Source: Tubulanus polymorphus (taxonomy: Eukaryota; Nemertea; Palaeonemertea; Tubulaniformes; Tubulanidae). Taken from it: a stretch of DNA of 64,000 nt. Below are positions 28,001 through 61,653 of this stretch, piece by piece. The stretch is from contig NC_134034.1 of assembly GCF_964204645.1 (NCBI RefSeq), positions 744,001 to 808,000 on the forward strand, read 5' to 3'. The notes under the pieces are model-generated. The model was not told the DNA's origin. It did no database searches and saw nothing but the letters and a program-made list of their open reading frames with translations. Position numbers and translations under genes: made by a program. Position 1 is the first letter of the stretch, and each line of letters opens with the position of its first letter.

Positions 28001-31000
28001 ATCTAACAGCTTGAGATCAGTCGAAGCTCATTTAGTTTATCTAACAAGTCCAGTCTCTAGATTTAGGACCACTTATGGGCATACTCAAGTCATAACTGGA
28101 TACTTGTCCTGTTTTAGCCTTCGGCTTACTTTAGTAAATACTTTATTTTACAGACTTTGAAGTCAGTTATTGTAATTATTTTGTAGAGTTGTTGAGTTGT
28201 TATTGCGTCACAATGCAAACGCTTGTCTTCGTGATGAAGATGGGTTCAATGCCGTCCACTACGCTTCATTAAACGGCAATAAGGCTGCCGTAGAAATGGT
28301 ACGTATCATGATCTAGTTAGAGTTAACTCTGAACTCGGGATCCGGTTCTACAGTTCTGAGTTAAGAGTTAACTGTGAACTCGGGATCCGGTTCTACAGTT
28401 GTGAGTAAGAGTTAACTGTGAACTCTGGATCCAGTTCCACAGTTCTGAGTTAAGAGTTAACTGTGAACTCAGGATCCAGTTCTACAGTTGTGAGTTAGAG
28501 TTAACTCTGAACTCGGGATCCAGTTCCACAATTGTGAGTATGAGTTAACTGTGAACTCTGGATCCAGTTCTACAGTTGTGAGTTAAGAGTTAACTCAGGA
28601 TCCAGTTCCACAATTGTTAGCAAGAGTTAACTGTGAACTCGGGATCCAGTTCCACAATTGTGAGTAAGAGTTAATTGTGAACTCAGGATCCAGTTCCACA
28701 GTTGTTAGTAAGACTTAACTGTGAACTCAGGATCCATTACCACAGGGTTGTGAATTTTGTTGAAATCAGTTCATTTTCAGTGTTTTAATATCTTTATGAG
28801 TCAAATCTTAACTCTGAACTGTGGAACTGGATGCAGTTAGTTATCCACATGTTAATTCTAACCAACCTCCTTTTAACTGCAATTCCCCGCCTGTTTACTA
28901 TATAGAATTGAATTGAATTATTTGCTATTTTGTTTTTTAGTTGCTTGATTTGGCAGCTACTGAATTACTATGTCACAGTATAGGATCTCCAACCACTCCT
29001 TTACATATAGCAGTAAGTACTATTGAATACTACAATATCAAATCACCTTCATCATTTATTGATCACTCTTACTCTTACTGGAATAACAGCGGTCTAGTTG
29101 TTTCGGGTTATGTTTCTTTATCAATACTTCATTCAGTAAAAAATGAATGAATCGTAACATTTTATAACTAAAAATTTCTCTGATTAACTCGAGGAATTTT
29201 GTATAAATCACATGGAAACCCTACTGTAGTTCCTAGAAATGACGCTAAAGAGCGAGCTGGAAATTTCCTAGAAATTACTCTATTCCAATTTCCTGTTCGT
29301 AATTCCTAGAAATGGCTATGGAATCAGGGTCAGGGTTAACGTTAGTTTTGTTATTACAGGCTTACAACGGTCACTCAGGAGTTGTGAATATACTAATGCA
29401 CTATTTAGCCAATATAGATATACAAGATTGCCAGGGTAAGTGTGTCGGTCTGATCAGGCCCATAGAGAGCCCTTAGAGGCCGGTAGAGATGTCAGTCCCT
29501 ATAGAGAGCGGTTAGAGGCCGGTAGAGATGTCAGTCCCTATAGAGAGCCCTTAGAGGCCGGTAGAGATGTCAGTCCCTATAGAGAGCCATTAGAGGCCGG
29601 TAGAGATGTCAGTCCCTATAGAGAGCCCTTAGAGGCCGGTAGAGATGTCAGTCCCTATAGAGAGCCGTTAGAGGCCGGTAGAGATGTCAGTCCCTATAGA
29701 GAGCCCTTAGAGGCCGGTACAGATGTCAGTCCCTATAGAGAGCCATTAGAGGCCGGTAGAGATGTCAGTCCCTATAGAGAGCGGTTAGAGGCTGGTAGAG
29801 ATGTCAGTCCCTATAGAGAGCCATTAGAGGCCGGTAGAGATGTCAGTCCCTATAGAGAGCCGTTAGAGGCCGGTCGAGTTGATAATGTGTATGTACGGTA
29901 TGTATTTCAGGACGAACCCCTCTTCACGTTGCTGCTGGTAGTGGACATATCGATATCTGTGACAATCTATTATCGCAAGGATCGCTGTTACTAGTGAGAG
30001 ACGCAATTACTAGAGCTACACCTATACATATTGCTGGTCAGTACAATCTCATCATCAAATTGTCTACTAGTGATTTGATCTACAGACACTTCTAGAAAAG
30101 ATGTCTGCCTCCATAAATCCCCCTATGACATCATCAAATTGTCTACTAGTGATTTCATCAATAGACACTATAGAAAAGATGTCTACCTCCATGAATCCCC
30201 CTATGACATCATGGAAAAAACACTTCAGTGAATGATCTATAGACACTAACAGAAAAGATGTCTGCCTCCATAAATCCCCCTATGACGTCATCAAATTGTC
30301 TTCTATTGATTTGATTAATCTATACGGGTAGACACTTCCAGAAAAAATGTTTTACTCCATCAGTCTATCTAGGGCTTTGATCTATAGCCAGTAAAGATGA
30401 CTGCCTCTATAAATCCCCCTATGACATCATTGTTTTCTGTGTGTTTCAGCTGCGTACGGGCAGACGGAATGTTTGAGAGTTTTTCTAGAAAGTTCTGACG
30501 ATCACCAAATTATTGATTGTTTGGACGATCAAGAAAGGTACGAATTAACATCAACAATCGCTCAACAATCATTCACAGTTACCGATCAATATTAATCATT
30601 GTTCGATTCCTCGTAGGACGCCTCTTCAGATTGCTATTGGTAACGGTCACACAGAGACTAGTTTATACCTCATTATAGGTGGCGCTAGTATTTCATCTGT
30701 AGATGTGTTCGGACGCACTGCATTACATAGAGCTGTAAGTAAAACAAACTCTTACCTCCCCTCACTCTCCTCTCTCTGCTCTTCTCCCTCTTTCTCTCCT
30801 CTTTCTCTCTCTGCTCTCTTCTCTCTCTTCCCCTCACTCTCTCCTCTCTTCTCTCTCTTTCTCGATATCTCTCCGTCTCCCCTCTCTCCCCTCTCTCTCT
30901 CTCCCCTCTCTCTCTCTCCCTCTCTCCCTCTCTCTGCTCTCTCTTCTCCCTCTCTCCTCCCTCCCTCCCTCCCCTCCCTCCCTCCCCTCCCTCCCTCTCC

Positions 31001-34000
31001 CTCCCTCTCCCTCCCCTCTCTCCCTCCCTCTCTCCCCCTCTCCATCCTGTAATCACTGTAATTACTGATTATTGATATCTAGGCTGCTAACGGTCATGAA
31101 GTTTGCGTTGAGGATTTACTACAACACGGAGCTGATCCGACGGTTAAAGATGGCCGAGGACGAACACCCTGCCACCTAGCGGCCATGTGTGGAAACGTTG
31201 TTGTACTGAACTCGCTATTACAGGTGAAGTAAAGTCTAATATCTGGTGTTTGTCGTTCATTCATCGATCAAAATTCGAATTATCATTTTTGATGTTTCTG
31301 ATATTTTGTAGTCGGGTCCGCTGAGTTATAATCAGTTATTAGATCACCATGGTTACACTCCGTTACACTGGGCGTGTTATAACGGCCACGACACCTGCGT
31401 AGAGTTATTGCTTCAACAAACTCAACATAAGAAATTTTTCGGGAATCCTTTTACTCCGTTACATTGCGCTGTGTAAGTTTCACGCGATGATGTCATAGGG
31501 GGATTTTATGGAGGCAGACATCTTTTCTAGAAGTGTCTGTAGATCAAATCACTAGTACACAATATGATGATGTCATAGGGGGATTTATGGAGTCAGACAT
31601 CCTTTCTGGAAGTGTCTTGCTCAAATCACTAGTAGACATAGGGGGATTTTAATGGCAGGTATCTTGTAAAAAACCTAATTGTCATTGCAGGATAAATGGT
31701 ATCGATACTTGTACAGAATTATTATTAGATGCTTCCAATGGTCCAATATCGAATCTTAAAGACAGCAAAGGCAGGTCAGTGATAGTACCGGTATACCAGT
31801 TGGAATCCACACAACTGTGGAACTGGGTTCAGATTCACATAGAACCCACGCAACTGTGGAACTGGGTTCAGATTCACAACCCACGCAACTGTGGAACTGG
31901 GTTCAGATTCACATAGAACCCACACAACTGTGGAACTTGATCCAGAGTCAAATCAAACCCACGCAACTGTTGAACTGGATTCTGAGTCAAATCAAACCAA
32001 CACAACTGTGGAACTTGATCCAGAATCGTTTCAACCCACACAACTGTGGAATTGTATCTAGAATCATTTCAACCCACACAACTCTGGGATTGGATCCAGA
32101 ATCACATTAAACCCACACAACTGTGGAACTGGATCAGAATCACATTAGATGAATGTGTTTATATTCTGCTGTCCATACCGCTGTCTATTTTTTATATTTT
32201 ATAGAACTGCTGTCCATACCGCTGTCTATTGTTTATATTTTATAGAACTGCTGTCCATGCTGCTGCCTACTCAGGACAATGTGAATCTCTACAGTTGTTA
32301 TTAACTAATGGTGCTGATGTGAATGTAGTTGATGAAATGAATCGTAGTTCGTTGATGATGGCTGCGACGAGTGGAAACTGTTCGGCTATCGGTACGTTAC
32401 ACCGGTTCCTAGTTATATCTCATTTCATTTTGCTGTCAAATTCGCTTAAGTCATTAAGTAGTTGTGCTGATCATTTTGTTGACGACTTTTCCAAATGCAC
32501 TTAATGCGATGAATTGCAAATAGAAATTGAGACTATGAAATAGAGATGACTTCAGAAATGTGATGATTTTATCAATGAATTGAGTTGGAAAACATGAATT
32601 TGGACTCAAAAATAAAGACAACTTCAGTAATGACTTTTGCGACCATGACTTCAGCGAGTCTTACTGTAAAGTCATTCTAAATGTCTTGGATCTTCATTAC
32701 TTGAGCGGGGGCTGCATTTGGTCAAAAGTTATTATAGTTAACCAGTAGATAGTGACAATCAAAAATTCATTGTTACTACGATTTTCATCCGCTGGTCAAA
32801 TCTTCGACGAACTCTTCAGTGACTGCTGACCACGACCCAGTTCCACAGTTGTGAGTTAGAGTTAACTCTGAGTTAGAATTAGTTCATTTTCAATGAGTTA
32901 AAACTCAGAGTCAAATCTTAACTCACAACTGTGGAACTGGGTCCTGTATATTTAATATATATTGAATGGTGTGTTTTATTGTTTTTATATAGAGTTATTA
33001 TTAGAACATGAAGCTGATGTATCGTTGTGTGATATCCATCAGAACAATGTTCTGCATTACGCGTGCGCATTCGACGACGACAGCGCCGCCATTTTACTTC
33101 TTGATAAAATCGACGATAAGAACATCATCAACGCGGCGAACTGTGAACATAAAACGTTAGTAGACAATTTCTGGAATCGAGGGCTGATTCCATAGTCATG
33201 GCTTACACTTACGAACCAGTTCTATAATCTAACAGCTTAACCCTTTTAGTGCCGACTAATTAATACCCTATAGTGCTTAAGAAAATGTGAAAATTTGGGA
33301 AAATTCCGCCCTTGTGTGTTGAATAACCGGAATACCGCTACAGTGCGTCTACACCACGGCGCGGTTTATCATTAGTTACTGATATTTCACTATGTTTTAC
33401 AGGTGCTGCCATCTTTCAATAGAGATAATTACTGATTACATCAATACTCCGCAGTGCGGTGTACTAGCAAAATTCATCACCGATTTATACACTGCACTGC
33501 GGTGTAGACGCACTGAAAGGGTTAAGACCAGTTTTGATATTTAAGACTGAGTTTGGACTTAAGTCTCGACTATGGTACCGGCCCCTAATTATTAGATCTA
33601 ATTTACAGGGGTGGATTTACGACGTGGTTCTCCGAACCCACACCCATAACAAGGATTGGGACTAAGATATTTGTTTATGTAGTGTTACCCATGTTTCAGG
33701 CCTCTGCACCTGGCCGCTAAGAATGGTTTAGTCACCGTCGTTCAAATGTTGATAACAAGTGGAGCCAGTATCCTTGCGGTCGATGACAACGGGCACACGC
33801 CGGCATTGTCGTGCGCGCCTAACAACCGCGTCGCCGACTGCTTAGCGATAATCCTCGCGAATATGATGCCGTTTTCGAATTCAACGCAAGCGATTAGAAT
33901 CGGTAAAAATAATCTGAGCGGAACTTATAGCTTGGGTAAGTCATTCACTCATTAACGGTTAACGTGGCCTCTCAACAACTCAAATCATTTATCTCTAACC

Positions 34001-40361: not shown

Positions 40362-40487
40362 CTAAGCACCTTGTTTGAGTTCGGACGGTGACGCGGATCT
40401 CGGAGGTGGGGTTACATCTCGTGTCGTAGAACAACAACCGCCGACTGATCGCTTCTGATCCGAGCTGAACTGATCACTAAACGTCGA
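40362..40487 (-). CDS. Probable alternative last exon of the ATD-less glutamate receptor
   Basis: After a good acceptor (TTCTGATTTTGTAG) a phase-0 frame of 41 codons plus TAG starts STFSDQFSSDQKRS and is Ser/Pro/Arg-rich, like a cytoplasmic tail. An internal phase-0 donor in the preceding receptor exon (AAG|GTTCGT, last exon base 41029) would join to it directly. The resulting receptor would be 490 aa with a 41-residue tail in place of the read-through tail. The donor is weak at positions +3 and +4, so the splice is inference. Confidence 0.5.
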   Translation of the reverse strand, partial: STFSDQFSSDQKRSVGGCCSTTRDVTPPPRSASPSELKQGA

Positions 40488-40929: not shown

Positions 40930-43900
40930 CTATACCGTATAAAACCGTATCCGTACGCGGGAACCAATCGGTGGGCAGTATAGCCAGCGAAAGTAGCGCG
41001 TACGATGACGTATATGCAAATTACGAACCTTTTTATCTTTAGATCTTTGCGCGGCGCGATATAAACACTCAAATATGGCGACGACGACCGCTACGATAAC
41101 ACCGAGCACCAGAATGACGAAGGCTCCTCGTATTTCAGACACTCCGATGTTTACATGACGCGGAAGCTTATCATCGTCATCCTGCACGCAGCTGTTCGAG
41201 TGAAACCATTTCCGATAGAGTTGATGCAACCTTCCACTTTCTTGTAATTTCAACAGAGCCAAGTTGACCGAATCCTTGTATGGGGATCCTTTCAAAAATT
41301 TGAAAACGAATAATTACTCATTTGATATCTTTTACATTCAACGAGGACCCCATCTCTTTATAAACAAATTATTTTACCAGCAATGCCTTCACTTTGATTT
41401 CTATATTCTTAATCGCAAACGTTAAAGATTAGTCATGTCTTTAGATAAGTATTGATTTTTGGGGCTTATATATAGCGCCATCTTTGTTCATTGTTTAACA
41501 GTCATTTAGAGTCTCACTGTAGCACCATTTGCTCCCATCGAGAATGGCACGGTCCGTGCTGTGGCTGGAGGATAGTAATGCTATCAGGTTCGAGTCCCGA
41601 CCGGGGGAACATGCTGTAGCATATTTACCTTTCGGGAAAGCGAGTCCATAACCTTTCGAATCGAGAAGACCTCCGACTTTCATCAGGGAGCATTCGCGCT
41701 GGACGATGTAATCGATCGTCGTCGATTCGGCGATAAAGGCGTAATTTCCTCTTCTGGCGCGTTCGAATCCTTCTTTACTTGTTCTCACAAATACAGACGG
41801 CTCATGCGTGCTCATAAACTGCCACATCTTCTCGTAGACAGATATCTTTGACTGCAATAAGATACAATTCACGTGCGGTTATTAGGAACTTAATCTTTAA
41901 ATATTATACTCGGATCATCTTTAACAACATGGATGGAAGGATAGCACACTTCAACTTTGCTCAAGGAAGAACTAAATTGCTTAAGTATCAAAATTCCCAT
42001 AGAGGAACTTCTATAGAGGTAATTTGGGGTTCTTCAACATTTCCTTTCGAGCTACATTTATAATCCCTCCACCGCCTCAGCTGTTCTCTGGTGAAGGAAT
42101 AGACCCAAAATCTTGAAAGAAATGTTCTTTTCGAGCTAAAGTTTCAAGTCTATACTTTGACTCATCTTCAATGATATTGGAACTTCAAACGTCATTAGAA
42201 ACACAAAAAGGGGACGCTAGTTCTACATGAAGGGTTTCTGACTTTAAAAGATTGAAAATCATTACTGTTTTGAAAAACGTCATCGTTGAACCGCCAGCTA
42301 TTGTTCCGTACTTGATTTTGGTCTGAGCTGCGAGGTCAGATGCACTTTCTACGGTTGGTTTCGGCATACTGTTGGAAACGACCCCGATTATTGACGAGAG
42401 CGAAGCCACATAGGTGGCAAATACAAAAAATGAAAATATCCACCAGACGGCGCTGACTATACGAACTGATAACGAGATTGGTGTCAAACCTGTAAATAAA
42501 AATCAATCCCATGTACAATAAACTTGTTTTGATTACACAATTCTCTGAGTTTAAGGCGTTGAGTGTGGCTTCAATACTCTGATATGGCTGCTTTGCGGCC
42601 ATTTTGAATATTCAAATTAATTACAAGTTATTCACAATCAAATCCTCTCTTAAAATATGGAAGGTCCTAGTATAGATAAGCATCAAATTTTTTCAGATAG
42701 CCGCCTTGTGGCAATTTTAGCTTTGATTCTATTTACCAGCTTTGCCCGGAAATCCGAACAGAAACCAAGCGCTGTTGAGGCACGAGAATGCGTTTCGTTC
42801 CTCGATATCGGAGTGATCGGAGTTTGGGTTTTGTTGCCACTCTGTGAATCTGCCGAGTAGGAATAGTATGAAACTCATAACGGCGTACGCGATAACTATA
42901 AACACCCAAACCTCCACCTCAAACGGGGCCAATATTGCGAACATCGACGACTGGCGCTCCCTGGTGGGTTTCCGCATAAGTATAGTAGTGCCGAGCTTCA
43001 AGTAAGGTTTGCTGAAATCTACAACTTGTGATCTGATGTAGGATATCGTTAAAGCTGCAGCCGACATATCCACTGTCTGAAATAACGAGAAAAAAACCAA
43101 TCAATACTTGACGACAGCGTCTACAGTATGCAAATTACTTGACTACAGTGTATACAGTATGCAAATTACTTGACGACTGTATCTACCGTATGCAAATTAC
43201 TTGACGACTGTATCTACAGTATGCAAATTAGTTGATGACAGTATTTAACAGTATGTATGATCACCTGCTTAAATATGATAATTACCTAGACGAAAATTAA
43301 CTTTCCCATATTCAAATTAATTTTACGAGAGTTCCTAGAAGACATGTATATGCAAATTACCTTGTTGAGCAGTTCGCCAATCATCCCGTTCCATTTGCCG
43401 TCTGGCGTGAGAGCCCCGTATCTCCCGTCGGCGACTAACTTCAATTTGTACTTGAAACCGACTTCATCAGCGAGAGCGTTCACTAAATCAACGATATATC
43501 CTTCAAAAGTCCCGGCAGAAGTTATCATGAGAAACGGTTTCTCCTGAATCAAATAAATCATACATTTTAAAATGAACTGTTAATTACATTAAAGCGGCCA
43601 TCTCGGATCTCGCACAATTTCGATTAGACCACGCGAGACTTTATCAAAATCCAAGATGGCCGCTGTAATGTGAAATAGGCCGGTTAACAGCACTTACTGT
43701 AATTGTAGTGATTTTCAGTTCACCGGGAGGCTCTGAAAGTATATTGATTACAAGACTCATACAGAACAATAATCGCAAAAACCGACAATATATACACAGG
43801 ATCTGGTTGAGAGGACATTTTCACGAGTCCTTCTCAGGAAAGAAATTGTGTAAACCTGCTGCAAATTTGACACCGATTCTCTGGAAATTGCATGTTTTCC

Positions 43901-44431
43901 TATGCATTCGTATTTTCGAAGAATCCTAACACCAATAGGGAAACCCTGCACCCATTTATTCATTAAGTTTTTGAACTGTTCGCTGACGAATTGAGGTCCT
44001 TTGTCACTGACTAAGATATCAGGAATACCAAATCATGCCAAATGATCCTTCAGTTTACTAATGACCACGTTCGATTTCGTGGAGTATCTCGGTCATCTCC
44101 CAGTAATTGCTCAAATAATCGACTGTTATCAGGTAATCTACCGCGTCTATTTCGAAAAGGTCACAACCTATTTTTTCCCAGGGTCGCGATACGGTTTTCG
44201 GCAAAAATTCACAGTCCGGTGTCATATGCGGGCTCGAAACTTGAATGTAGTGCAGGCTATCTCAAGGGCGAGGGGGGAATTACGGAACAATTCTTGATCA
44301 ACGTTCTGTTCACGCATATGTTATAGAAAATGTTTTAGAGAGAACTTACTTGGTGTCGCCTGAGCTGCAGTCATCGAGGTCGCTGTCACCATCAGTAACA
44401 GAAAACTAACCAACAAATTCATTGCATCCAT
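40930..44431 (-). CDS. Ionotropic glutamate receptor subunit lacking an amino-terminal domain, 7 exons
   Basis: Ligand-gated cation channel family. Exons: 44431-44350, 43732-43698, 43543-43361, 43076-42737, 42489-42266, 41851-41629, 41288-40930; phases agree and give 481 aa. Residues 1-25 are a signal peptide. At residue 33 the ligand-binding S1 lobe already begins (LKITTIT-EKPF), so the ~400-residue amino-terminal domain of standard subunits is absent. Glutamate-contact residues are kept: R115 in [10 protein letters not shown]281-T282 in [10 protein letters not shown]330 in FIAEST. M1 is about 156-175, pore loop 196-214 ([14 protein letters not shown]), M3 227-250, M4 417-438. The gate motif is [10 protein letters not shown] instead of SYTANLAAF, and Lys212 aligns with the Q/R site. 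Closest in layout to kainate-binding-type short receptors; kainate class is suggested by QTxIxYGTI..GSTMTFF. Tail uncertain (see alternative exon). TATATAAT 53-60 bp before the ATG. Confidence 0.92.
41555..41613 (+). mobile_element. tRNA-like SINE fragment in receptor intron 6
   Basis: A B box GGTTCGAGTCCCGACC is preceded by an imperfect A box (GTGGCTGGAGGATAG). It lies 16 bp from the exon 6 donor, antisense to the receptor gene. Not a functional tRNA by stem pairing. Confidence 0.45.
43105..43250. repeat. ~35-bp repeat in receptor intron 3
   Basis: About four copies of ACTTGACGACTGTATCTACA followed by GTATGCAAATTA. It includes repeated octamer-like ATGCAAAT sites. Confidence 0.85.
43940..44235 (-). 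pseudogene. Decayed Ty3/gypsy-type retrotransposon integrase fragment in receptor intron 1
   Basis: On the same strand as the receptor, frames read [15 protein letters not shown], then VDYLSNYWE, then [14 protein letters not shown], the core of a retroviral-type integrase with the first two acidic catalytic positions. The third catalytic acid lies beyond the break. The frame shifts near 44070-44080 and is stopped by TGA at 44035-44033, so it is dead. No LTRs are seen nearby. Confidence 0.82.
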
Positions 44432-44483
44432 TTCATAAAATCACTATTCAACTTCACGCAATGAACCGTGAAGCTAAAACTCG

Positions 44484-44491
44484 ATTATATA
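44484..44491 (-). promoter_or_regulatory. TATA-like box of the glutamate receptor gene
   Basis: TATATAAT on the minus strand 53-60 bp before the ATG at 44431, at a suitable distance for a start site near 44455. Confidence 0.35.
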
Positions 44492-44499
44492 TTAATATA

Positions 44500-45343
44500 G
44501 TTTGTAGCGCGCAGTACGGCTTATCCCCGAATAGCAGTAACAGGTAATATATAGATACTGTGTGTAGAACGCAGCCGCGTCAAACAGTGAGGTAAACCCG
44601 CCGCGGATTCATGCTGAGATAACAATACTCAATTGGGTTACCGCTGCTACTGGCTGCTGCTGCTGTTGTTGTTTTTTGAAAAGTAGGACGAACATCAACG
44701 GAAATAAGTATTTATCGAAAATTGCGGTCACACAATAATTAAAGTCAATCGTTTCTGTCCCGCGCGGTCGCAGACGCAATCTGGCGGTGACGACTGTAAT
44801 ACTATAATGGTCAAAGTGAAAGTGTAAAATAAAAATGAATGCAGTAAAAAAAGAATTGTTTGATTTATTACGAGAAATATAACTTCATTGAATATCGTTT
44901 TATATGAATCTATACATCGGTTAACGTAGACTGGTTGCCAGTCCCATTCAATATGTAATATCTAATATCTAATTGAATATAGAGACCGGTAACCAAACCG
45001 GACGATAGCCTAAACTGGTGACGACTTCAGTCAAAACTTCCAGACATCTAGAGCAACGACTATACCGTCAGGTGCTGCCGCCATGCTCGATGTTGGCGGG
45101 TCTTTCATAAACTAACGTGAAAAGGAACCATTCCGACTCAGGCAATCGAGTTCGATTAACTGCTAACAACTTCCGTACAATAACAACTACAAGGAATTAG
45201 ATGAAATAAGTTGTATATTCACAATTTTATTTTAACGTAAAATATCTTTTTATTCAATTAACAGTGCAAAAATACACATTAAAAACCACTAAAAAATTTA
45301 TAATAAATTTGAATCGAGTGATGAAATAAATTTGAATCGAGTG
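44500..45343. other. Intergenic DNA, left flank of the large duplication
   Basis: No gene recognised. The last 40 bases contain a doubled TTTGAATCGAGTGAT motif directly next to the duplication breakpoint at 45343/45344. Confidence 0.55.
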
Positions 45344-45671
45344 ATACCGAATCCAGTGTTCACTTCACGACGGTTACGCAATATGAAGCTAATTTACCAA
45401 AGGCCCTGAATTTATCGGCAAAGAAAGATATAATTCACGTTACATCAGTAGTTTCAAGGCACCGCCTGGTCTAGTCTATTAGATCTAGCCGCGGCCGGTT
45501 CTAGAGGGGTCCGTAACAACGTCCTGGTTGTCCAGATTAAAAATTGTTTATAGGCCTACATCCTCGCTTGCCAGGGTTTGATTGCGATGAAATTCTGGAT
45601 AGACATTGTCATCATCCACGACAACTATTCCGAAGTGAGGGTATCCCAAAATTAAACTAATTTTAGTCTTG

Positions 45672-45750
45672 TGCAGTTAGCTAGCTCAGTTGGTTGAGTG
45701 GAGGTCTGCGAACCGAGAGGTCCTTAGTTCGAAACCACCTCTGGCATTGG
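45672..45750 (+). mobile_element. tRNA-derived SINE head
   Basis: An A box TAGCTCAGTTGG and a B box AGTTCGAAACC are at tRNA-like spacing, but the anticodon region does not fold. The 3' part runs on to about 45850. Second copy at 55455-55533. Confidence 0.6.
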
Positions 45751-45941
45751 ATGTCGAGACACATACATGGACTAAGCTCTGCTAACTTAAGTCAGGTTGT
45801 GAGCCATAACAACCTATAAAAAGGCTCTGGCCGTCTCTTAAGACCCACTAGAGTTACACTGTTACTTGCAGTTGGGACGTACAACTCTTCTAAACTTTAC
45901 ACCAGGATAAAACAACTAATTCATATCGACATTAAATACTA

Positions 45942-45947
45942 TTTATT
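45942..45947 (-). terminator. Polyadenylation signal of TOMM7
   Basis: AATAAA on the minus strand, 88 bp after the TOMM7 stop. Copy at 55725-55730. Confidence 0.5.
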
Positions 45948-46034
45948 GTAATAACTTTGTACAAAAAACAATTTATACAATATGTTGAATAAAATCTGGT
46001 CTGGTGTTGATTGTAGAATTCTGGCTGCCGTTCG

Positions 46035-47501
46035 TTATTGCCACAATAAACTAAAATAGAGACAAAAACATCATAAATCACTACCTAGCAACTATGATGG
46101 GAAGGGTGAGACAACAGGCGCGGATCCAGACTATCGATCATGCAGCACGTGCGGTAGTCGCAGTTTTCAAATGCCTTTAAAAAATTCATGTTTCGGGAAA
46201 AAAGTAAATAAAAGGGCACACAATTTGTGCGCCATAAAAAATAATTGCCCTTCTGTACTAGGACTAAAGCAAAATGTGAATGAAAATAAATTGCCCAAAA
46301 TAAAAAAGGCAATCTAAGGCATTTTTCTTTACTCAAACGGGCACTATTCTAAAAGAGACATTATTGTTGCTCTATAAATCTAATCGAAAAAGGGCAAATT
46401 TCGCCAAAAATCTAAAAAAGGTACACAAGTGGCATGATACAAATAAATGGCACTCAAAATCAAACTCAATCGCTGGACATTAATACTGGCCATTTTCAAA
46501 GTTGGTGCCCTTTTTTCACTGTGCCGTAGTCACTGAATGGACCTGGATCCACGCCTGGACAATAGCAACAACAAAGTCTCTAAATCCTGAAAGGGCAATT
46601 TCCATCTTCCAGCGTGAAATCCAGTATCAATGACCCCCCGGTGACAGTGTGGATCCAGTTATTGCTGTGACATGTCGTTGTGGTTTCTCCTATAGAGGCC
46701 TACGTACGTACCTGAGTACTGTTATTTCTGGCATACCCGGTTCTGCGCCTTTCTTGAAACCTGACAAAAATTAAAACCCAACATTCAGTAAAAACGTCAA
46801 AATCTCTTCTTCATATCACCTGCAACCATTGAACTGTATGTACACCAAAATAAACTTGCGTTTGAACGGAATAGTATCTCGGTCAAAAGTAACCCGGACA
46901 AAGAGGAACTCACAATTTTCGGATATTCAATAAAATTCATCAATTCGGGGTATATTTAGATCCTATAACCGAGTCGTACACAAAATGGTGGCTTTTTCAA
47001 ATGATAAGATCAGAAGGGTTAGTATCAAGAGGGTTTAGGGTTAGGTGAGGCTTTAGGGTTAGTATTAGGTGAGGCTTTACAGTTTATTACTATAAGGTAG
47101 CTTAAGGTAAGATTATATGAAGTTATAAAACCAGTGAACTGGCAAGCTAGCATCGCTAGCACCTCGGGATAGCGTTATGCTTGCGCTCACATGGTTGCGT
47201 GTTCGAGTCCTGATTTTTAGTTACTTTTCAAGAGTTTTCTAAGTCCAGGCAGTGCGCATGCGCGACGAGTCAGTTATAGGATCTAACATCTACCCCAGTA
47301 CCGGGTTAGGAGTAGTTTACCGGTACAAAACGTAGTATATATCAATTTCATTAGCAAATAAACTGAATTTAAATTGTGTTTTGACTGTTCTCGCTTACCT
47401 AGATATAACACGGTAGGAATGAATCCCCAATGAAACGCTGTTTTACCAATAGAAAATACCGTCGAAATTCTCTTCTTCATCGCTGTACTTAATTTAACCA
47501 T
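46035..47501 (-). CDS. TOMM7: TOM7, mitochondrial import receptor subunit (copy 1), 3 exons
   Basis: Small tail-anchored subunit of the outer-membrane TOM translocase that modulates assembly of the TOM40 complex. Exons: 47501-47399, 46760-46712, 46050-46035 (TAA at 46037-46035); junctions are in phases 1 and 2 and spliced length is 168 nt, giving exactly 55 aa as in human. The start MVKLS, the membrane segment with WGFIPTVLYLG, then GFKKGAEPGMPE and the final LSLLWQ all match the family along its whole length. The last exon encodes only five residues, so it would be missed by ORF-based annotation. The first two exons are separated by a 638-bp intron. It lies at the left of the duplicated unit, upstream of and on the same strand as the Kunitz genes' direction of transcription. 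Confidence 0.95.
47150..47218 (+). mobile_element. tRNA-like SINE fragment in TOMM7 intron 1
   Basis: A tRNA-like stretch with B box TGTTCGAGTCC and upstream GCTAGCACCTCGGGATAGCG. Just 5' (46990-47085) is a GGGTTAGG-type telomere-like series. Copy at 56933-57001. Confidence 0.5.
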
Positions 47502-48239
47502 GATTTCTGTGAGATTTATTCGCTGTTCTTTTCGTGTGAAATGTTTTCAATACGGCGAGGTAAGACTGAACTGAAGAACGCGCAGCTCAAGCGCGGTGGA
47601 ATCGTGAGCGTCTGTGTAGTGTAACACCACGAAAACTCCAACACGAAATGTCGAGTCATTAGAAAAATCAAATATAAATCAAATTATATTGGGTCCGTTG
47701 CCCTCTACATGTTTCCCTGGTCCGAAGGGGTTGTTCAGATTGTAGATTGATACCCGCTGCGAGTCGTGCGAGAAATTAAATCAAAAGAAGTTTGATATGT
47801 TTCAAAAAATGAAAAGAAAACGGCTAACAAAATTGATACGTTTCTACAGGCCCGCGGCCGTCGCGACTCGGCCGGCCGCCTCTCAATACATTACTTTTTT
47901 CTAAAATCATGATTTAACAGACCCGGCAGTTATAGAAATGAACTGATTTTAAAACCGATTACACTGGAACGCACCTGCCTGAAAGAGTTTCAGATGGAAC
48001 TGATCTTTTACAATCCTCAATCGGTTTGTGAAACGGGATTTCTGGCGGAGTTTTAAGTCATCGAAAAAAATATCGTCAAGTGTCTCTGGTATATCAGACA
48101 CTGGATAAACACTAAATTTCTAATCGGGAGAAGTCATCACATTACTGAAGTCTTTATTTTTGAGTCCTATTACAATTCAACTAACGACTTCAGAGCTTGA
48201 ATGTATTTCATACAATGATTTGCACTATTGGACCTGACT
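47502..48239. other. Spacer between TOMM7 and Kunitz gene A
   Basis: Includes the TOMM7 5' region, a GC-rich CCCGCGGCCGTCGCGACTCGG patch near 47852-47880, and a decayed fold-back related to the GTTTCAC family at about 47915-48040. No gene is seen. Confidence 0.5.
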
Positions 48240-48781
48240 CTATTTAGAACAGGCCTTCAAGCAAGCTTTCTTCGTTTGGAAGTTGTTCGCGTTTCCTTTG
48301 CAGCCTCCGTACACGAATTCTTCACAAGTTCCCGTGGCGGAATTATAGTGGAATCGAATAAACATGGCCTCACATGGTCCAGTCGATTTGGGCAGGTCAC
48401 ACGGTGCTGAAATATATCAAAATTATACCAAGCCTTACTACTGGGAGTTGCCGAATAGATTATGCAAATTACGATAAAATGTTTAGTATGAGCTTACACT
48501 TTGACGCCTGTATTCTGCTGCCCGCTAATATCGTCTGCAATGAATATTAAAGGCGTAACTTCATTTATGATACCGGCAGCTTTTACTTGAATTTTTCTAA
48601 AACCTGCGAAAAGGTCTCCTAGTTCAACAATTAACCATTCCAGTTAAATCTGGACTCAATATTCTGGAACCAGTTCCACAATCGACCCATTCAAACAAGA
48701 ATGACGGTATCTAAAAGAGTTAAAATAACTTACGCACAAAAGAACGCAAATTATAATTGAACTCGGTCGTGAATGATGCAT
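48240..48781 (-). CDS. Kunitz-domain secreted protein A (copy 1), 3 exons
   Basis: Kunitz/BPTI fold, typically a serine-protease inhibitor. Exons: 48781-48734, 48534-48498, 48406-48240 (TAG at 48242-48240), phases 0 and 1, 83 aa. Exon 1 gives a signal peptide (MHHSRPSSIIICVLLC), exon 2 a 12-residue linker, exon 3 one complete Kunitz domain. Cys spacing is canonical (8, 15, 7, 12, 3 residues between successive cysteines), with GPC before the reactive site and YGGCKGNANNF. The P1 residue after the second Cys is Glu, not the Lys or Arg of trypsin inhibitors, so the target is unclear and function may not be protease inhibition. TATAAAA lies 49-55 bp upstream of the ATG. It is the simplest member of a four-gene same-strand cluster. 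Confidence 0.92.
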
Positions 48782-48829
48782 CTTTCAGAAATCAACGTGT
48801 GAACTATGAGTACCGCCACGTCCAGCCTG

Positions 48830-48836
48830 TTTTATA
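48830..48836 (-). promoter_or_regulatory. TATA box of Kunitz gene A
   Basis: TATAAAA on the minus strand, 49-55 bp before the ATG at 48781. Genes B and C have TATA-like boxes at comparable distances. Copy at 58613-58619. Confidence 0.55.
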
Positions 48837-48837
48837 T

Positions 48838-48992
48838 CGAGTCAAATCGATAATTTTTACTAGTCATCATTTTTCAAATCTGTTTCTAATTTATTTGTTT
48901 TGTGTCGTCTGCCGTAGATACAGGAGATAACGGAAACACGTGACGTTTTTCTCATTAAGTGATATTCGAACAGGGGTCGGGCGGGAAGGCGG
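48838..48992. repeat. ~155-bp duplicated upstream segment, first member
   Basis: GTCAAATCGATAATTTTTAC through GGTCGGGCGGGAAGGCGGTAGA is repeated, with about 6 differences, at 51333-51487. One lies just 5' of the gene A TATA box, the other about 500 bp 5' of gene B. Both contain ACACGTGACG, an E-box core. Confidence 0.85.
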
Positions 48993-48999
48993 TAGAGGT

Positions 49000-49165
49000 C
49001 TCACGCTGCTGAAAGGGTGTCTCCAGGCGGAGAGGCCGGTTCCACGCTGCTGAAAGGGTGTCTCCAGGCGGAGAGGCCGGTTCCACGCTGCTGAGAGGGT
49101 GTCTCCAGGCGGAGCGGAGAGGCCGGTTCCACGCTGCTGAGAGGATGTCTCCAGGTGGAGGATGG
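49000..49165. repeat. 41-bp minisatellite upstream of gene A
   Basis: About four copies of a unit with CACGCTGCTGAAAGGGTGTC and CAGGCGGAGAGGCCGGTTC. The open minus-strand frame across it is an artefact. Copy at 58783-58948. Confidence 0.9.
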
Positions 49166-49460
49166 TTCCAGCTACGAGAGCGTGTGCCTTCCGGACTGCT
49201 GAGAAGGTGCCTTCAACAAGGTGCAGGAGATTTTTAGCCCTCATTGGTGCTGTTTAACGTCAAAAGATAATCAATTCCAGTTTAAATTCGAATTTTATTT
49301 GATACAGAAAAAACAATTTCTAGTAACGGAAAAATGAATTCAAAACAAACATTTGCTATATCATCACATACAACGATATAACTTATAAATCAACAATCTT
49401 CAAATGACATAGTTTTCAGTAATCGCCCCAGGAGAGACCAGTCCCGCATAGTAATATCAC

Positions 49461-50833
49461 CTATTCTGCCTGCAAGAAATAGAATTTTATGGTGGTATTT
49501 CATTAATTTCATATGGATTGTTGAAGCGACAAGGTAATGATCCTCCGGGTCAATTCCGTAGTCGAGACTTGAAACTAAAATCCTAAGACTGGTCTTAAAT
49601 AAAACATTAGATTGTCTACAGAAGAAAGATGGTCTCGGTCTATACCTCTAGACTATGGGACCAGCCGCTGGTTTTGATATCAAATTTCTATATTTCAAAC
49701 TAATATGATTTGTTATTTCAAACTGCTGAACAAACCTTCACAATACAAGAGCCTTGTTTTAATAACGCGGCGCATCTTTCGCAATCTTTCGGTTCTTCTG
49801 GTATCATTGTTCTGTAAAAAACAAACAAACATAATTTCTCAATGTGCCATATTCACCATTAAGGCTTAAGTCATGATCAAGCTAAACTATAATCAACAGA
49901 CCCGGTAGTTATAGAAATGAACTGATTGCGGTTTACAAAAGTGACCCGGCCGATTAGGAGAAACAAGGTATCATTTTCAGCCCAATCATTGGTTTCTGAG
50001 ATGAGGGCTCAGAGTTGTGATGGGTTCATGATACAGTTTTACCCATATTAGACCAGTAATGCTCGGACAATGGTTGATATTTACTTGTAAATGCAGCGGG
50101 CCTCGCAAAGTTCCTTGGCTAGGAAGTTATTTTTATTTCCCTTACATCCGCTGAAATAGAACTTTTCGCAGTTCTTGGTCTCGTGGTTGAAGAAATATCT
50201 CAGCGTTTTGAATTCAAAAATAACATCCATACAAACACCTTTTATTGCAGGTAGGTAACACTCCACTATAGATTATAAATAGAAAAACACTTTCATTTCA
50301 TATCAGGCCTACTTAAACACGACCTGAGCTCAATGGAGGATTTGTGTGGACTTGGATGGACAACTATGGAATAGATTGAAAAACTCGGAAGTTGTGAATG
50401 GACAGGCGCGGGACTGGTTGGACTTGGTGTGCGGCCGGACCGTTACAGAACTTAGTGGACAAATGTGGGTTTTCACCCAGTCCTGGAAGTGGTTGTAGCA
50501 CCAGTGGACTCCGTCGATCCAGGATCCTCTGTGGTCTTAAACATCAGACACTTCGGTGCTCGGGTGGACAACTGTGGAACTTAATAGGCAACAACTGTGT
50601 TGGCATGGCCACTTGCGGGTTGGGTGCACAGCTTCAAAAAATGCTGAAATACAAAATGGCAGATATTACTTACTTGGTCTTAGCTCAATGCATTGACTGT
50701 AGGCGAAAATAGTCTGAAAAATTTGAAATAGACATAAGAATTAGTGCTGAATCTAGGACTGCTCCATGGTTACCGAATATACGTAGGTTGCACATACCCA
50801 TAAACAGATAACTCCTATTGAAAGGTTGTTCAT
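49461..50833 (-). CDS. Kunitz-domain secreted protein B with extended loop and CxxC tail (copy 1), 5 exons
   Basis: Exons: 50833-50798, 50713-50674, 50265-50085, 49811-49736, 49469-49461; every junction is GT..AG and in phase (0, 1, 2, 0), giving 113 aa. Exon 1 is a signal peptide (MNNLSIGVICLW; a second in-phase donor at 50783 would add VCATY). Exon 2 adds one Cys. Exon 3 is a Kunitz domain with six Cys, but 20 residues lie between the second and third Cys rather than 15, an insertion just after the P1 residue (Met). The end is normal (CKGNKNNF..LCEARC). Exon 4 encodes KDCERCAALLKQGSC, which gene D shares almost exactly, and exon 5 only Ala-Glu-stop. Likely an extracellular inhibitor or ligand; target unknown. 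TATATAG 47-53 bp before the ATG. Confidence 0.85.
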
Positions 50834-50879
50834 CGTGTTGAAGGTTGACTGATATTGAGTCTACTCGGCATCCTGCTCT

Positions 50880-50886
50880 CTATATA
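50880..50886 (-). promoter_or_regulatory. TATA-like box of Kunitz gene B
   Basis: TATATAG on the minus strand 47-53 bp before the ATG at 50833. Copy at 60663-60669. Confidence 0.45.
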
Positions 50887-51109
50887 TTCAATCGTCCATA
50901 TAAATATCATTCATTATCATTTGTTTGATCCACACGTAAAAAATTGTGTAACAGTTCGACGATAGAGCACATAGTCAACCGGGTATGGATTAATTTTTAT
51001 GTTTACCAAACATGTCCTATCTCTCAAATTGTTTCTAGTGCATCTGAAGTCGTTCTCTCTCCATTCCTGTCGAGACAGTGATTATAGGCTGGGAGAGGGT
51101 GGCTCCAGC

Positions 51110-51200
51110 ATGAAAGTGGCTGACGCGAGAGAGCGGAGCGAGGGAGAGAGGGAGACGGAGGGAGACGGAGGGAGAGGGAGGGAGACGGAGGGAGAGAGGG
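51110..51200. repeat. GA-rich tract
   Basis: GGGAGACGGAGGGAGAGGGA-type purine tract about 300 bp upstream of gene B. Frames on both strands here are low complexity. Copy at 60893-60983. Confidence 0.85.
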
Positions 51201-51332
51201 TGCTAGGATATCCCCCGACAAAAATGCAACCAAAAATAATTCACAAGTTTGTTTCAATTTTTGATAAAACTTTTATTTAATGATTTTTGTACATAAGATG
51301 CAACTTCATTTGCTGTTCATATAAGGAGCTTC

Positions 51333-51487
51333 GTCAAATCGATAATTTTTACTAGTCGTCATTTTTCAAATCTGTTCTTAATTTATTTGTTTTTTGTCGT
51401 CTGCCGTGGATACAAGAGATAACGGAAACACGTGACGTTTTTCTCATTAAGTGATATTCGAACAGGGATCGGGCGGGAAGGCGGTAG
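51333..51487. repeat. ~155-bp duplicated upstream segment, second member
   Basis: Paralogue of 48838-48992 (TTTTTACTAGTCGTCATTTT, ACACGTGACG, GGCGGGAAGGCGGTAGA). Confidence 0.85.
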
Positions 51488-51670
51488 ACATCCGCAATGG
51501 CAAACTCACTAACAACCCAATGAATTTTCCGGCACAACAAACAATATTTAAAGCAGTATTCAACCATTATCCGTCGGATGGGCTCTTGCGAAACTTATGA
51601 TATGGATATCTTAATAAATAATCATACTAAATAATGTATTATAATATACTATCAAACTATCATTACCAAT

Positions 51671-51870
51671 CACCATGTCTAACTGGTTACTACCGCAATG
51701 GGTCACCACCATGTCTGACCAGATTCCTGACCAGCCAAGTTTACCAATTTCGTCCGGTTCTATGGTCTAGTGGTTAGAATGCTCGACTGTCATGCTCGTG
51801 GTCGAGGGTTCGTGTCCGGTTCAGGGTTCCCCGCTGGACCGATTTGCCTGTGCCACCGAGGTGTCCCTTT
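51671..51870 (+). mobile_element. tRNA-derived SINE (Asp-like head)
   Basis: At 51755-51825 an A box GGTCTAGTGGTTAGAATGC, a loop CTGTCAT with GTC in the anticodon position and a B box GGGTTCGTGTCC resemble tRNA-Asp, but stems are mismatched. The upstream CAATGGGTCACCAC links it to the SINE at 8155. Copy at 61454-61653. Confidence 0.65.
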
Positions 51871-52189
51871 TTGGTATATGGAACATTTTTTTTCTTCAAA
51901 TTAAGCACGTAAAGACAAACAAACTTTCGACTGAAATTAAGACTAACTTCGGTGACAACCACTTGGATGAGAATAAGTCGGACAAATCACGAAATAACAC
52001 GAAAAACCAACAATATACGATAACGATGACAACGCGAGTTGTGATGAATAAATTTATTCATTTTATGAAGAATTCAAAACATCAATATCAATCAGTTGTG
52101 GTCATTCTGCGCATGCGCCTGTGGTCAGCAACTGGTCACGTCCATCTACAAATATAGACATGTTTAAATTCCCGTACTCAATGTAAATA

Positions 52190-52400
52190 TGACTGCTTTC
52201 ATTAATCCCCCTATGACATCATGTAATTCTTATGTGCTCTGATCTATAGACTCTTCTAAAAAAAGATGGCTGCCTCCAAAATTCCGCCAATTACATCATA
52301 ATATAAACGTGCTCTGATCTATAGACTGTTCTAAACAGATGTCTGCCTCCATAAATCCCCCTATGACATCATCAAATTGCCAACTAGTGACTTGATCTAA
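52190..52400 (-). repeat. ~80-bp GATGATGTCATAGGGGG family, three diverged inverted units
   Basis: Units read AATCCCCCTATGACATCATG. Same family as in the ANKRD28-like introns, here just downstream of Kunitz gene C. Copy at 61973-62183. Confidence 0.85.
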
Positions 52401-52449
52401 TAGAGCCTTTTAGACCTGTTCTAGAAGTCTCTTAACTTACCTAGATGTT

Positions 52450-52963
52450 TCAACATTCTTTCTGGCACTGTTCCAGCGTGAGGAAGTTATTTGCATTTCC
52501 CTGGCAACCTCCGTACGTGAACGACTGACAGGTCTTTGTTGATTGGTCAAAGTAAAATCTCGGCATCAGCGCCATACACGGTCCGGTATCCTTTGGTAGG
52601 AAGCAGGCAGCTTGAGGGAAGAGAAATAGAATAACATCTTGTTTCAATTCAAAACTTGAGACCACTCAAAAATTGAATATACACGTTTTGCGAGACTGCT
52701 TACTTGAGTGTAACGCCGCCTGGGAACACACGAAAACCGTCTACAAAAAATACGAATAAAATTCATGTAGTCAATTTGAATTTCTCTAGAAAAAAAAAAC
52801 AAAGATGGCGCTGCCTCCACGGTTTCTGGAAATGTCAACATTAGGCCTGAATATATGAAACAGGGTCGCATTGGGCCCAGTATAAGTTCAAGTCAATAAA
52901 ATCAATAAGATATCTACTTACGCATAGCAACGCGACACAAATCAATAATTTATTCGACGCCAT
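52450..52963 (-). CDS. Kunitz-domain secreted protein C (copy 1), 3 exons
   Basis: Exons: 52963-52922, 52740-52704, 52610-52450 (TGA at 52452-52450), phases 0 and 1, 79 aa. Exon 1 encodes a signal peptide start (MASNKLLICVALLC) and exon 2, 37 nt as in gene A, continues it (TVFVCSQAAL). Exon 3 is a single Kunitz domain with canonical spacing of 8, 15, 7, 12 and 3 residues, GPC at the reactive site, TYGGCQGNANNF, and the stop directly after the last Cys. P1 is Met, compatible with elastase-, chymotrypsin- or subtilisin-like targets rather than trypsin; this is inference from family knowledge. A consensus donor lies 12 bp after the stop, so an intron in the 3' UTR is possible. TATAAAA 58-64 bp before the ATG. 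Confidence 0.92.
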
Positions 52964-53020
52964 TGTAAAGGGATTGCGATCTAACAGTCATGTATCTAAC
53001 AGTCGACTGAACTCACGTTG

Positions 53021-53027
53021 TTTTATA
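53021..53027 (-). promoter_or_regulatory. TATA box of Kunitz gene C
   Basis: TATAAAA on the minus strand 58-64 bp before the ATG at 52963. Copy at 62804-62810. Confidence 0.6.
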
Positions 53028-53172
53028 CCCGAACCGGCGGAAACGGAATCCCGGACGTTATCACCACTATCTACTATAACGACGATTTAAAATTCACCGA
53101 AATCAAATGTATTTTTATCTTTTTCATTTTTTCGAGATTAACGATTTTCATTATTCAATACGCAATCCGACA

Positions 53173-53206
53173 GGTCACGTGACCGTGCGAAACGTTGCAC
53201 GTGACC
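53173..53206. promoter_or_regulatory. Paired palindromic E-boxes upstream of gene C
   Basis: GGTCACGTGACC (53173-53184), a perfect 12-bp palindrome, is followed 12 bp later by GCACGTGACC (53197-53206). GTCACGTGAC is the site known for bHLH-zip factors of the TFEB/USF type. About 150 bp upstream of the gene C TATA box. Copy at 62956-62989. Confidence 0.5.
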
Positions 53207-53513
53207 TTCCCTAGCAGACGGCAAACAAAATCATCAACCACCTCTACTACATACTCGACTGTGAAGCTAGAGATGGTGGCTCGGGGGCCAAGGGCCCGTT
53301 CCATAGTCAAGAACTAAGGCAAATTGGTGTTCGATTGGTCGCAGAAGTAATTTTCCAGATTGGTTATAGAATAACATTAGATAAAAAATACGTCAAAAAT
53401 GTATCTGTCTTGTGAAATGGTTTTTATGATAATGGAACAATTAATCGGATTTTTAAATCAATTCTATCATAATTTCCAGAATTCCAGTTCCCCAGTTGTT
53501 GAATTGTTGCTGC

Positions 53514-54453
53514 CTATTCGTCCAAATCCTGAAAGAAATAAGACTTGTCAGATCTATAATATATTTTGTTATGGTGACCACGTCGTTGTGTCGTCACTCG
53601 AAACCCTAGAGTTCCACGACAGGTCTGTCGGTAAAGATTTCGAATATTTTTAACTCATTTCGAATATTTCAGAGTTAACTCAACAAACCTTCATTGTACA
53701 AGAGCCTTGTTTCAGTAAGGCCGCGCATCTTTCGCAATCTTTCGGTTCTTTTTCTACGATGACCGATCTATAAAATAACCAAACACAGTCTCAATCATTG
53801 TGCCCTACACGCAGCACGCACGCACGCACGCACGCACGCACACCAATATTTTCAAATTATTTGTGTTAAGTCTGTAGGCTAACCCTGAGTTTGATTGGTC
53901 GAGATACGATTGTTTCTTGTTGACCAGGGCGTCAGAGTGGTGGACCCATACTGATCAAGTTGTTGGCCTATATTGTCGAAGTTGTAGGCTCACGTCGTTT
54001 AGGCCCGCCATATTAACAAAGTTGTTGTTGTGGACACATATTGGCGTGCGCATTGATGGCTGGAGGATGGGCGCTTACACGAGATGGGGCGCTTTATTTA
54101 ATCCCACAATAAATTCAGCCAAAAATGAAAAGTTCTATATTAAAATGATTATATTTCGAGCAACATTTCGGCTAAGCCATCATCGGGCGTACTGGACCTT
54201 CATTTTTGGCTCAATCTATTTTGGGATCTCTCTCGTAAAAGCAGTCATAATTTGATTTGTGATAATTACTTGTCAATGCAGTATGCCTCGCAAAGATCCT
54301 TGGCGATGAAATTATTGCTATTTCCATTGCACCCTTCGTATAGGAACTTTTCGCATTTCTCGGTCTCTGTGTTGTAATAATATCTATAAGGTTTAGTGAA
54401 GCCATATGGGGTGTAAAGACAGTGACCAACTTCTAAAGGCAGATAACAAACCA
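53514..54453 (-). CDS. Kunitz-domain secreted protein D with extended loop and CxxC tail (copy 1, 5' end not found)
   Basis: Exons found: 54453-54270, 53767-53689, 53528-53514 (TAG at 53516-53514), joined in phases 2 and 0. The Kunitz exon begins in phase 1 (as in A, B and C), so signal and linker exons should lie upstream between 54454 and 55126, but I could not identify them; an ATG frame at 54826 is a weak candidate. The domain reads CYLPLEVGHC then 21 residues to the third Cys (6 more than usual), then CEKFLYEGCNGNSNNF and LCEAYC. P1 is Leu. The next exon shares EPKDCERCAALLKQGSC with gene B, and the last encodes DLDE-stop. It is thus a close paralogue of B. Inverse possibility: a truncated gene whose 5' end was lost at the duplication border. 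Confidence 0.75.
53806..53845. repeat. (ACGC)n microsatellite in gene D intron
   Basis: About seven CACG/CGCA tetranucleotide units. The copy in the second unit (63589-63628) has exactly the same length. Confidence 0.93.
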
Positions 54454-55126: not shown

Positions 55127-55454
55127 ATACCGAATCCAGTGTTCACTTCACGACGGTTACGCAATATGAAGCTAATTTACCAAAGGCCCTGAATTTATCG
55201 GCAAAGAAAGATATAATTCACGTTACATCAGTAGTTTCAAGGCACCGCCTGGTCTAGTCTATTAGATCTAGCCGCGGCCGGTTCTAGAGGGGTCCGTAAC
55301 AACGTCCTGGTTGTCCAGATTAAAAATTGTTTATAGGCCTACATCCTCGCTTGCCAGGGTTTGATTGCGATGAAATTCTGGATAGACATTGTCATCATCC
55401 ACGACAACTATTCCGAAGTGAGGGTATCCCAAAATTAAACTAATTTTAGTCTTG

Positions 55455-55533
55455 TGCAGTTAGCTAGCTCAGTTGGTTGAGTGGAGGTCTGCGAACCGAG
55501 AGGTCCTTAGTTCGAAACCACCTCTGGCATTGG
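55455..55533 (+). mobile_element. tRNA-derived SINE head, copy 2
   Basis: Identical to 45672-45750. Confidence 0.6.
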
Positions 55534-55817
55534 ATGTCGAGACACATACATGGACTAAGCTCTGCTAACTTAAGTCAGGTTGTGAGCCATAACAACCTAT
55601 AAAAAGGCTCTGGCCGTCTCTTAAGACCCACTAGAGTTACACTGTTACTTGCAGTTGGGACGTACAACTCTTCTAAACTTTACACCAGGATAAAACAACT
55701 AATTCATATCGACATTAAATACTATTTATTGTAATAACTTTGTACAAAAAACAATTTATACAATATGTTGAATAAAATCTGGTCTGGTGTTGATTGTAGA
55801 ATTCTGGCTGCCGTTCG

Positions 55818-61453: not shown

Positions 61454-61653
61454 CACCATGTCTAACTGGTTACTACCGCAATGGGTCACCACCATGTCTG
61501 ACCAGATTCCTGACCAGCCAAGTTTACCAATTTCGTCCGGTTCTATGGTCTAGTGGTTAGAATGCTCGACTGTCATGCTCGTGGTCGAGGGTTCGTGTCC
61601 GGTTCAGGGTTCCCCGCTGGACCGATTTGCCTGTGCCACCGAGGTGTCCCTTT
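61454..61653 (+). mobile_element. tRNA-derived SINE, copy 2
   Basis: Identical to 51671-51870. Confidence 0.65.

Follow-up and report, generated by a model that had tools for sequence, protein, structure and literature searches.

An ionotropic glutamate receptor gene of Tubulanus polymorphus with a conserved ligand pocket, an altered gate motif and no amino-terminal domain

INTRODUCTION

The vertebrate kainate-binding proteins of frog, chick and fish pass from a signal peptide directly to S1, with no amino-terminal domain (ATD), and they keep the gate motif SYTANLAAF; in work ascribed to Villmann and dated 1997, they are said to have functional channel domains. The rotifer receptor AvGluR1 has no ATD either. 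The pore of AvGluR1 is described as K+-selective (PMC11479355), and the ATD-less layout is reported for most IRs (PMC2924276, PMC12837371). SYTANLAAF has been described as essential to gating, and M3 as the domain that is best conserved in these receptors (PMC6307864, PMC11479355). The motif is poorly conserved in the Lambda and some Phi receptors (PMC6307864), and four of eight gate-motif residues differ in plant GLRs (PMC11479355).

Several surveys bear on how often such genes have been seen. A metazoan survey of 2018 excluded sequences with fewer than four of the nine motif residues (PMC6307864). Twelve receptors of 794-1224 residues were described in oyster (PMC10642201), SYTANLAAF was found highly conserved in 12 genes of Aplysia (PMC5225553), and at least one iGluR model of Biomphalaria, marked as not full length, had no ATD (PMC4890853). 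In the accessible parts of the open-access literature, outside which lie most subscription papers and supplements, we found no description of an AMPA/kainate-like receptor that lacks the ATD and combines a retained glutamate site with an altered gate.

Here we describe a receptor gene of the nemertean Tubulanus polymorphus located in the window, the whole stretch of 64,000 nucleotides that was analysed (C10:744001-808000). An earlier note on this DNA had presented it as a kainate-like receptor without an ATD; that note does not mention the rebuilt gate and pore, exon 8 or the relatives elsewhere in the genome.

RESULTS

The gene occupies 44431-40362 on the minus strand in eight exons, all seven introns being GT-AG, with a coding length of 1473 bases or 490 codons (490 aa) and TAG as the final codon. 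Exon 1 (44350-44431) carries the ATG, nine bases downstream of an in-frame TGA, and a signal peptide of 27 aa, all of them the same in the L043 piece of a paralog described below. Exon 2 (43698-43732), 35 bp long, encodes a short linker and the first S1 strand in 12 aa; it aligns to the first S1 strand of GluK receptors and has counterpart exons in the related loci L039 and L040. The S1 ligand-binding half lies in exon 3 (43361-43543) and continues in exon 4 (42737-43076), which holds the Thr and Arg contacts, M1 and the start of the pore loop, FGFPGKAG, whose Lys is the Q/R site. Exon 5 (42266-42489) encodes the remainder of the pore loop, which is shorter by two residues, then M3 with the motif TYVASLSSI and the start of S2 with the Ser-Thr contacts. 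The Glu contact and the first Cys of the S2 disulphide pair are in exon 6 (41629-41851), the end of S2 and M4 in exon 7 (41029-41288), and the cytoplasmic tail with its TAG stop in exon 8 (40362-40487), which is 94% identical over 124 bases in the L048 piece of the paralog.

The first two exons and the start of the third had been placed at the same positions before. The gene end formerly given, 40930, corresponds to exon 7 read through into intron 7, with exon 8 following as one further exon; a shorter isoform ending within intron 7 may exist. Several features support the model beyond chance: 490 open codons over eight exons, a phmmer E value of 1.7e-116 to a solved receptor, and a paralog that keeps the splice sites of exons 1-7. 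Judged by sequence comparison, the model is borne out by its relatives, since both this paralog, about 90% identical, and the distant relative L040 have the same layout. Intron 1 contains an open frame (44032-43757) that resembles by eye a piece of a retroelement integrase, with no Pfam match.

Pfam finds Lig_chan-Glu_bd at residues 32-137 (1.6e-35) and Lig_chan at 154-426 (1.9e-26) of the protein, and no ANF_receptor match. The signal peptide, M1, M3 and M4 are visible in its hydropathy, the ligand-binding domain is complete with both lobes, and both Lig_chan profiles together with the order S1-M1-M2-M3-S2-M4 place it in the ionotropic glutamate receptor superfamily. The S1 strand LKITTIT starts at residue 33, bearing out the earlier view that the signal peptide runs into S1 with no room for an ATD. 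Upstream ATD exons, which that view held to be the evidence that would count against it, were looked for in genomic DNA and none was found. Pfam searches of the three minus frames of 44432-54000 gave no ANF_receptor match at E up to 1. The GluK2 ATD, a query identical in sequence to PDB 5kuh, yielded over the whole window only two tblastn pieces (E 3.2 and 8.9) and nothing with phmmer. Genome-wide, across 267.8 Mb in 77 contigs, ANF_receptor gave 89 matches (115 of 127 candidates scored); none of them falls in the window, and the closest on C10 is at 444334-446808. On these searches, made with Pfam over 44432-54000 and with the other two over the whole window, and given the TOM7 and Kunitz exons found upstream, missed ATD exons were rejected.

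Directly upstream of the receptor lies an exon of the mitochondrial import protein TOM7 (47477-47382, minus strand), with a further exon near 46759 recognized by eye, and then Kunitz-type inhibitor exons (48401-48249, 50260-50093 and 52608-52453, minus strand). The TOM7 and Kunitz exons are carried by an exact tandem duplication (45344-54217 and 55127-64000; unit 9783 bp, 0 mismatches over 8874 bases) that is cut by the window end and is either a very recent event or an assembly artefact. Elsewhere in the window there are ankyrin-repeat matches at about 29910-33856 on the plus strand, spread over three frames in the manner of a gene with several exons, and a WSC domain match at 36472-36338 on the minus strand.

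We aligned the protein with GluA2, whose residue numbers are used for the contacts; P478 makes its contact via the backbone. E402, Y450, T480, R485, S654, T655, E705 and Y732 are all retained, including the Arg, Ser-Thr and Glu contacts reported before, as are both S2 cysteines. The P478 position is Ala, as in GluK5 and GluD2, and the M708 position is Thr, as in GluK2. At the positions of GluK2 E524 and R775, which belong to the ligand-binding domain dimer interface, the protein has Ser and Lys.

The channel is another matter: compared with six receptors, all vertebrate, that form our reference set, the protein keeps 28/33 reference-invariant columns in the ligand domain versus 6/14 in M3 (Fisher p 0.0098). 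Its gate motif TYVASLSSI shares three of nine residues with SYTANLAAF, whereas the six references have 9/9, and its M3 is 34% identical to that of GluK2, compared with 93% between GluK2 and GluA2. As a control, M3 columns invariant in the other five references were kept at 14/14 by GluK5 and by GluA2, at 14/16 by GluD2 and at 14/20 by GluN1. The pore loop, FGFPGKAG then LTPISLS, is two residues shorter than in GluK2. It is not unusually divergent overall (13/29 residues identical to GluK2, with 48% identity between GluK2 and GluA2), and it keeps all four reference-invariant columns. A mis-spliced pore loop was considered as the cause of the gap and rejected: no alternative donor or acceptor that would supply two more residues was seen by eye near the junction, and the paralog has the same junction. 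Because the FGSPGNAG loop of L040 is full length, the Q/R position is fixed as Lys here and Asn in L040. The ATD, the SYTANLAAF gate and the Gln/Arg at the Q/R site, all traits of kainate receptors, are absent from this gene.

Its affinities within the superfamily were addressed by similarity searches and trees. Among the best 60 of 387 matches to solved chains, phmmer scored 7ysv at 393 bits (listed as 'Glutamate receptor' and presumably GluK1), GluK2 at 392, GluK1 at 389, GluK3 at 380 and GluK5 at 364, with GluA chains at 363-353. These scores favour the earlier label 'kainate-like', but GluK1 and GluA2 tie in S2 identity to the protein (52% each; GluK2 51%, and 49% between GluK2 and GluA2), and approximately unbiased (AU) tests reject neither a kainate (p 0.161) nor an AMPA placement (p 0.516). 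On these comparisons, the label is too narrow.

A phylogeny had been proposed earlier as a check on the assignment. The rows of our trees were pieced from exon matches, so their ends may hold intron-derived residues. In a tree of 41 rows (two of 43 dropped for coverage), the gene groups with L039, L040 and L041 (99/98), beside AMPA plus kainate receptors (94/84), in a 14-row fork (94/99); the seven remaining gate-altered rows fall outside that fork as a second group (86/89). In a tree of 38 rows, built with the M2-M3 columns removed and L016, L036 and L050 also omitted, the gene groups with L039 and L040 (93/99), L041 floats, and AMPA plus kainate receptors exclude them (97/85) inside a 20-row fork (90/88) that here also includes the second gate-altered group. 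The best trees place the gene nearest AMPA and kainate receptors, either of which may be the nearer, and the AU test does not reject an IR-like placement (p 0.106, 13.3 log units worse when grouped with four IR-like rows). Neither did it reject a grouping with GluD2 in a seven-row set (p 0.284) or a single clade of the gate-altered loci (p 0.211 with 11 rows, p 0.433 with 10).

Exon-by-exon profile searches of the genome gave 76 Lig_chan and 77 Lig_chan-Glu_bd matches. From these, a subset of 37 own-genome rows was read; L054 is without M3, leaving 36 loci scored for the gate. L017, L018, L038, L042 and L046 lie outside this table, the first four scoring 6, 6, 6 and 5 separately, and there are uncounted loci, for example on C9, C11 and C12 and several on C1, C5, C7 and C10. 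The gate score was at least 5 in 25 of the 36 loci and at most 4 in the remaining 11: the window gene, L039, L041 and L051 (3 each), L040, L045 and L052 (4 each), L049 and L050 (2 each, the latter poorly aligned), and L044 and L053 (1 each). All five tabulated contacts (Tyr, Thr, Arg, Ser/Ala-Thr and Glu) are present in five of these 11, namely the window gene, L039, L040, L041 and L045, and the other six miss at least one. A separate group is made up of L030, L033, L035 and L037, where the M3 motif reads TYTADLAAY and the Glu contact is replaced by Asp. Pattern searches gave 37 hits in contigs of bacterial genomes and 11 in viral contigs, with no relative confirmed.

We surveyed 41 loci for an ATD, taking as criterion an ANF_receptor exon no more than 30 kb upstream and in the same orientation. 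Such an exon was present at all six AMPA/kainate-like loci (L009, L012, L019, L020, L027 and L028), at 446-4290 bp, and at two of the three NMDA-like loci; within 30 kb upstream, none was found at the 11 gate-altered loci, at L054 or at the 20 other loci. Fisher's test on 6/6 versus 0/11 gives 8e-5, with related genes treated as independent. Since none of the 20 other loci has one, and four of these, L010, L011, L014 and L015, score 9, 9, 9 and 6 on the gate, the gate-altered family is not alone in lacking a detectable ATD.

The paralog (L039, C10:1318800-1322800, with L043 and L048) lies about 0.53 Mb from the window gene, and 404 of 446 aligned residues are identical. L043, a 4.2-kb piece with exon 1 and its upstream DNA, yielded no ATD. 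For the 446 codons compared, we obtained a dN of 0.052 and a dS of 0.123, and the resulting dN/dS of 0.43 points to purifying selection. Amino acid changes are unevenly distributed, with one in 111 codons of M1-M3 (110/111 the same) and 34 in 252 codons of the ligand domain, the latter including the positions of GluA2 M708 and Y732. As dS is 0.013 in M1-M3 versus 0.167 in S1 plus S2, and introns 1-6 are only 51-86% identical, local gene conversion in M1-M3 is likely, and identity there is by itself no proof of constraint. Upstream of exon 1, a 134-bp stretch (45039-45172 in the window, 1060-1193 in L043) is 96% identical, above the level of introns 1-6, and is a candidate promoter or 5' UTR.

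L040 (with L047, C1:5366500-5373000) is a more distant relative that has its own signal-peptide exon and short second exon, and the same intron phases (1, 0, 0, 1, 0, 1) at six junctions. The 3.5-kb L047 piece gave no Pfam match. Identity to the window protein stands at 55% for M1, M2 and M3 alike, 48% for S1, 50% for S2 and 42% for M4, and the pore motif FG(F/S)PG(K/N)AG is common to both. This shared motif, and M1-M3 identity of 55% versus 48-50%, a small difference on segments of 29-36 columns, suggest that the altered channel has not been left to drift. At the position aligned with Y732, L040 carries Leu. The locus lies on the plus strand of C1, gate-altered and with no ATD detected, tail to tail with L012, a minus-strand gene of the canonical kainate-like type that does have an ATD exon, the outermost matches being about 2 kb apart.

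DISCUSSION

The gene described here shares with AMPA and kainate receptors the order of S1, S2 and M1-M4, the ligand contacts, the S2 disulphide cysteines and, among the best 60 of 387 solved chains, its closest sequence matches. It differs from them in having no ATD, three of nine gate residues, Lys at the Q/R site, a pore loop two residues shorter, an S1 loop 1 seven residues shorter and an M3-S2 linker three residues longer. The lack of an ATD beside an intact ligand domain is shared with the vertebrate kainate-binding proteins, and AvGluR1 is likewise an invertebrate glutamate receptor without an ATD; AvGluR1 has a K+-selective pore, while by eye the window gene carries no K+-filter sequence. 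Protostome IRs also have a short N-terminus and no ATD (PMC2924276), but have lost some or all of the glutamate contacts that are retained here. Plant GLRs, set beside the gene by description and of plant lineage, likewise depart from SYTANLAAF.

We think it somewhat likelier than an even chance (about 0.55) that the gene encodes a working, unconventional ATD-less subunit of an ionotropic receptor for glutamate or an amino acid, and that it belongs to a small lineage within this genome. The subunits would assemble by means of their ligand-binding and membrane domains only. Binding of glutamate or a related amino acid would close the clamshell, and this closure would pull on an M3 helix whose closing and opening depend on contacts other than SYTANLAAF. 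The filter would carry a ring of lysines, and Ca2+ flux should be poor by analogy with edited receptors that have Arg at the Q/R site (PMC12226733). In a tested chimera, a viral potassium pore put under the control of a glutamate-binding domain was gated without SYTANLAAF, and a form deleted of its NTD still responded; gating relied on the viral channel's own gate (PMC6385376). By this example, neither loss of the ATD nor loss of the gate motif forbids gating. Against a working channel, conduction could be abolished by the loss of two filter residues and six of nine gate residues, a subunit retained just for glutamate binding or assembly would also have its membrane segments preserved, and gene conversion may explain the near-identity of M1-M3 in the paralog pair.

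A tentative possibility is that the gene encodes a chemosensory receptor that works in the manner of protostome IRs and is tuned to amino acids in solution, its lineage having diversified by the ligand domain. This would fit the lack of an ATD, as in most IRs (PMC2924276), the 11 gate-altered loci among 36, the non-rejection of an IR-like grouping and the concentration of changes between the paralogs in the ligand domain (34/252 codons versus 1/111 in M1-M3), at the M708 and Y732 positions among others. However, the low dS of M1-M3 points to gene conversion for that last pattern, all core glutamate contacts are retained, unlike in IRs, and the best trees place the gene beside AMPA/kainate receptors. 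As this proposal concerns where, not whether, the channel works, it overlaps with a working subunit, and the probabilities of the several readings do not sum to one.

It is rather unlikely, in our estimate, that the product is a non-conducting glutamate-binding membrane protein with a role like that of vertebrate kainate-binding proteins, buffering glutamate or damping receptors by joining them. The contrast between kept ligand contacts and a lost gate (28/33 versus 6/14 invariant columns, p 0.0098) and a filter two residues short argue for such a role, whereas pore and gate are about as conserved as the ligand domain between this gene and L040, the L040 pore loop is full length and the window pore loop keeps 4/4 reference-invariant columns. 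Truncation or decay of what was once an ordinary kainate receptor gene, with the ATD exons lost or missing from the assembly, would account for the absence of both ATD and gate but is very improbable given the gene's own signal-peptide exon, intact frame and dN/dS of 0.43, a paralog with the same exons, the same exon phases in L040, and neighbouring genes that occupy the upstream DNA.

Returning to a working subunit, a bolder proposal, which we regard as doubtful, is that these loci form a lineage of their own, glutamate-gated channels that open by a gate different from SYTANLAAF and conduct through a PGxAG filter ringed by Lys (window gene, L039) or Asn (L040), possibly permeable to monovalent cations or even anions, and that they escaped sampling because sequences retaining fewer than four gate residues were left out of one broad survey. 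Under that rule, 8 of the 11 gate-altered loci found here would be dropped, the window gene included, and other animals may therefore hold comparable genes that have gone uncounted. With its intact glutamate pocket, three of nine gate residues and no ATD, this receptor constitutes a natural test of the parts needed for gating and assembly.
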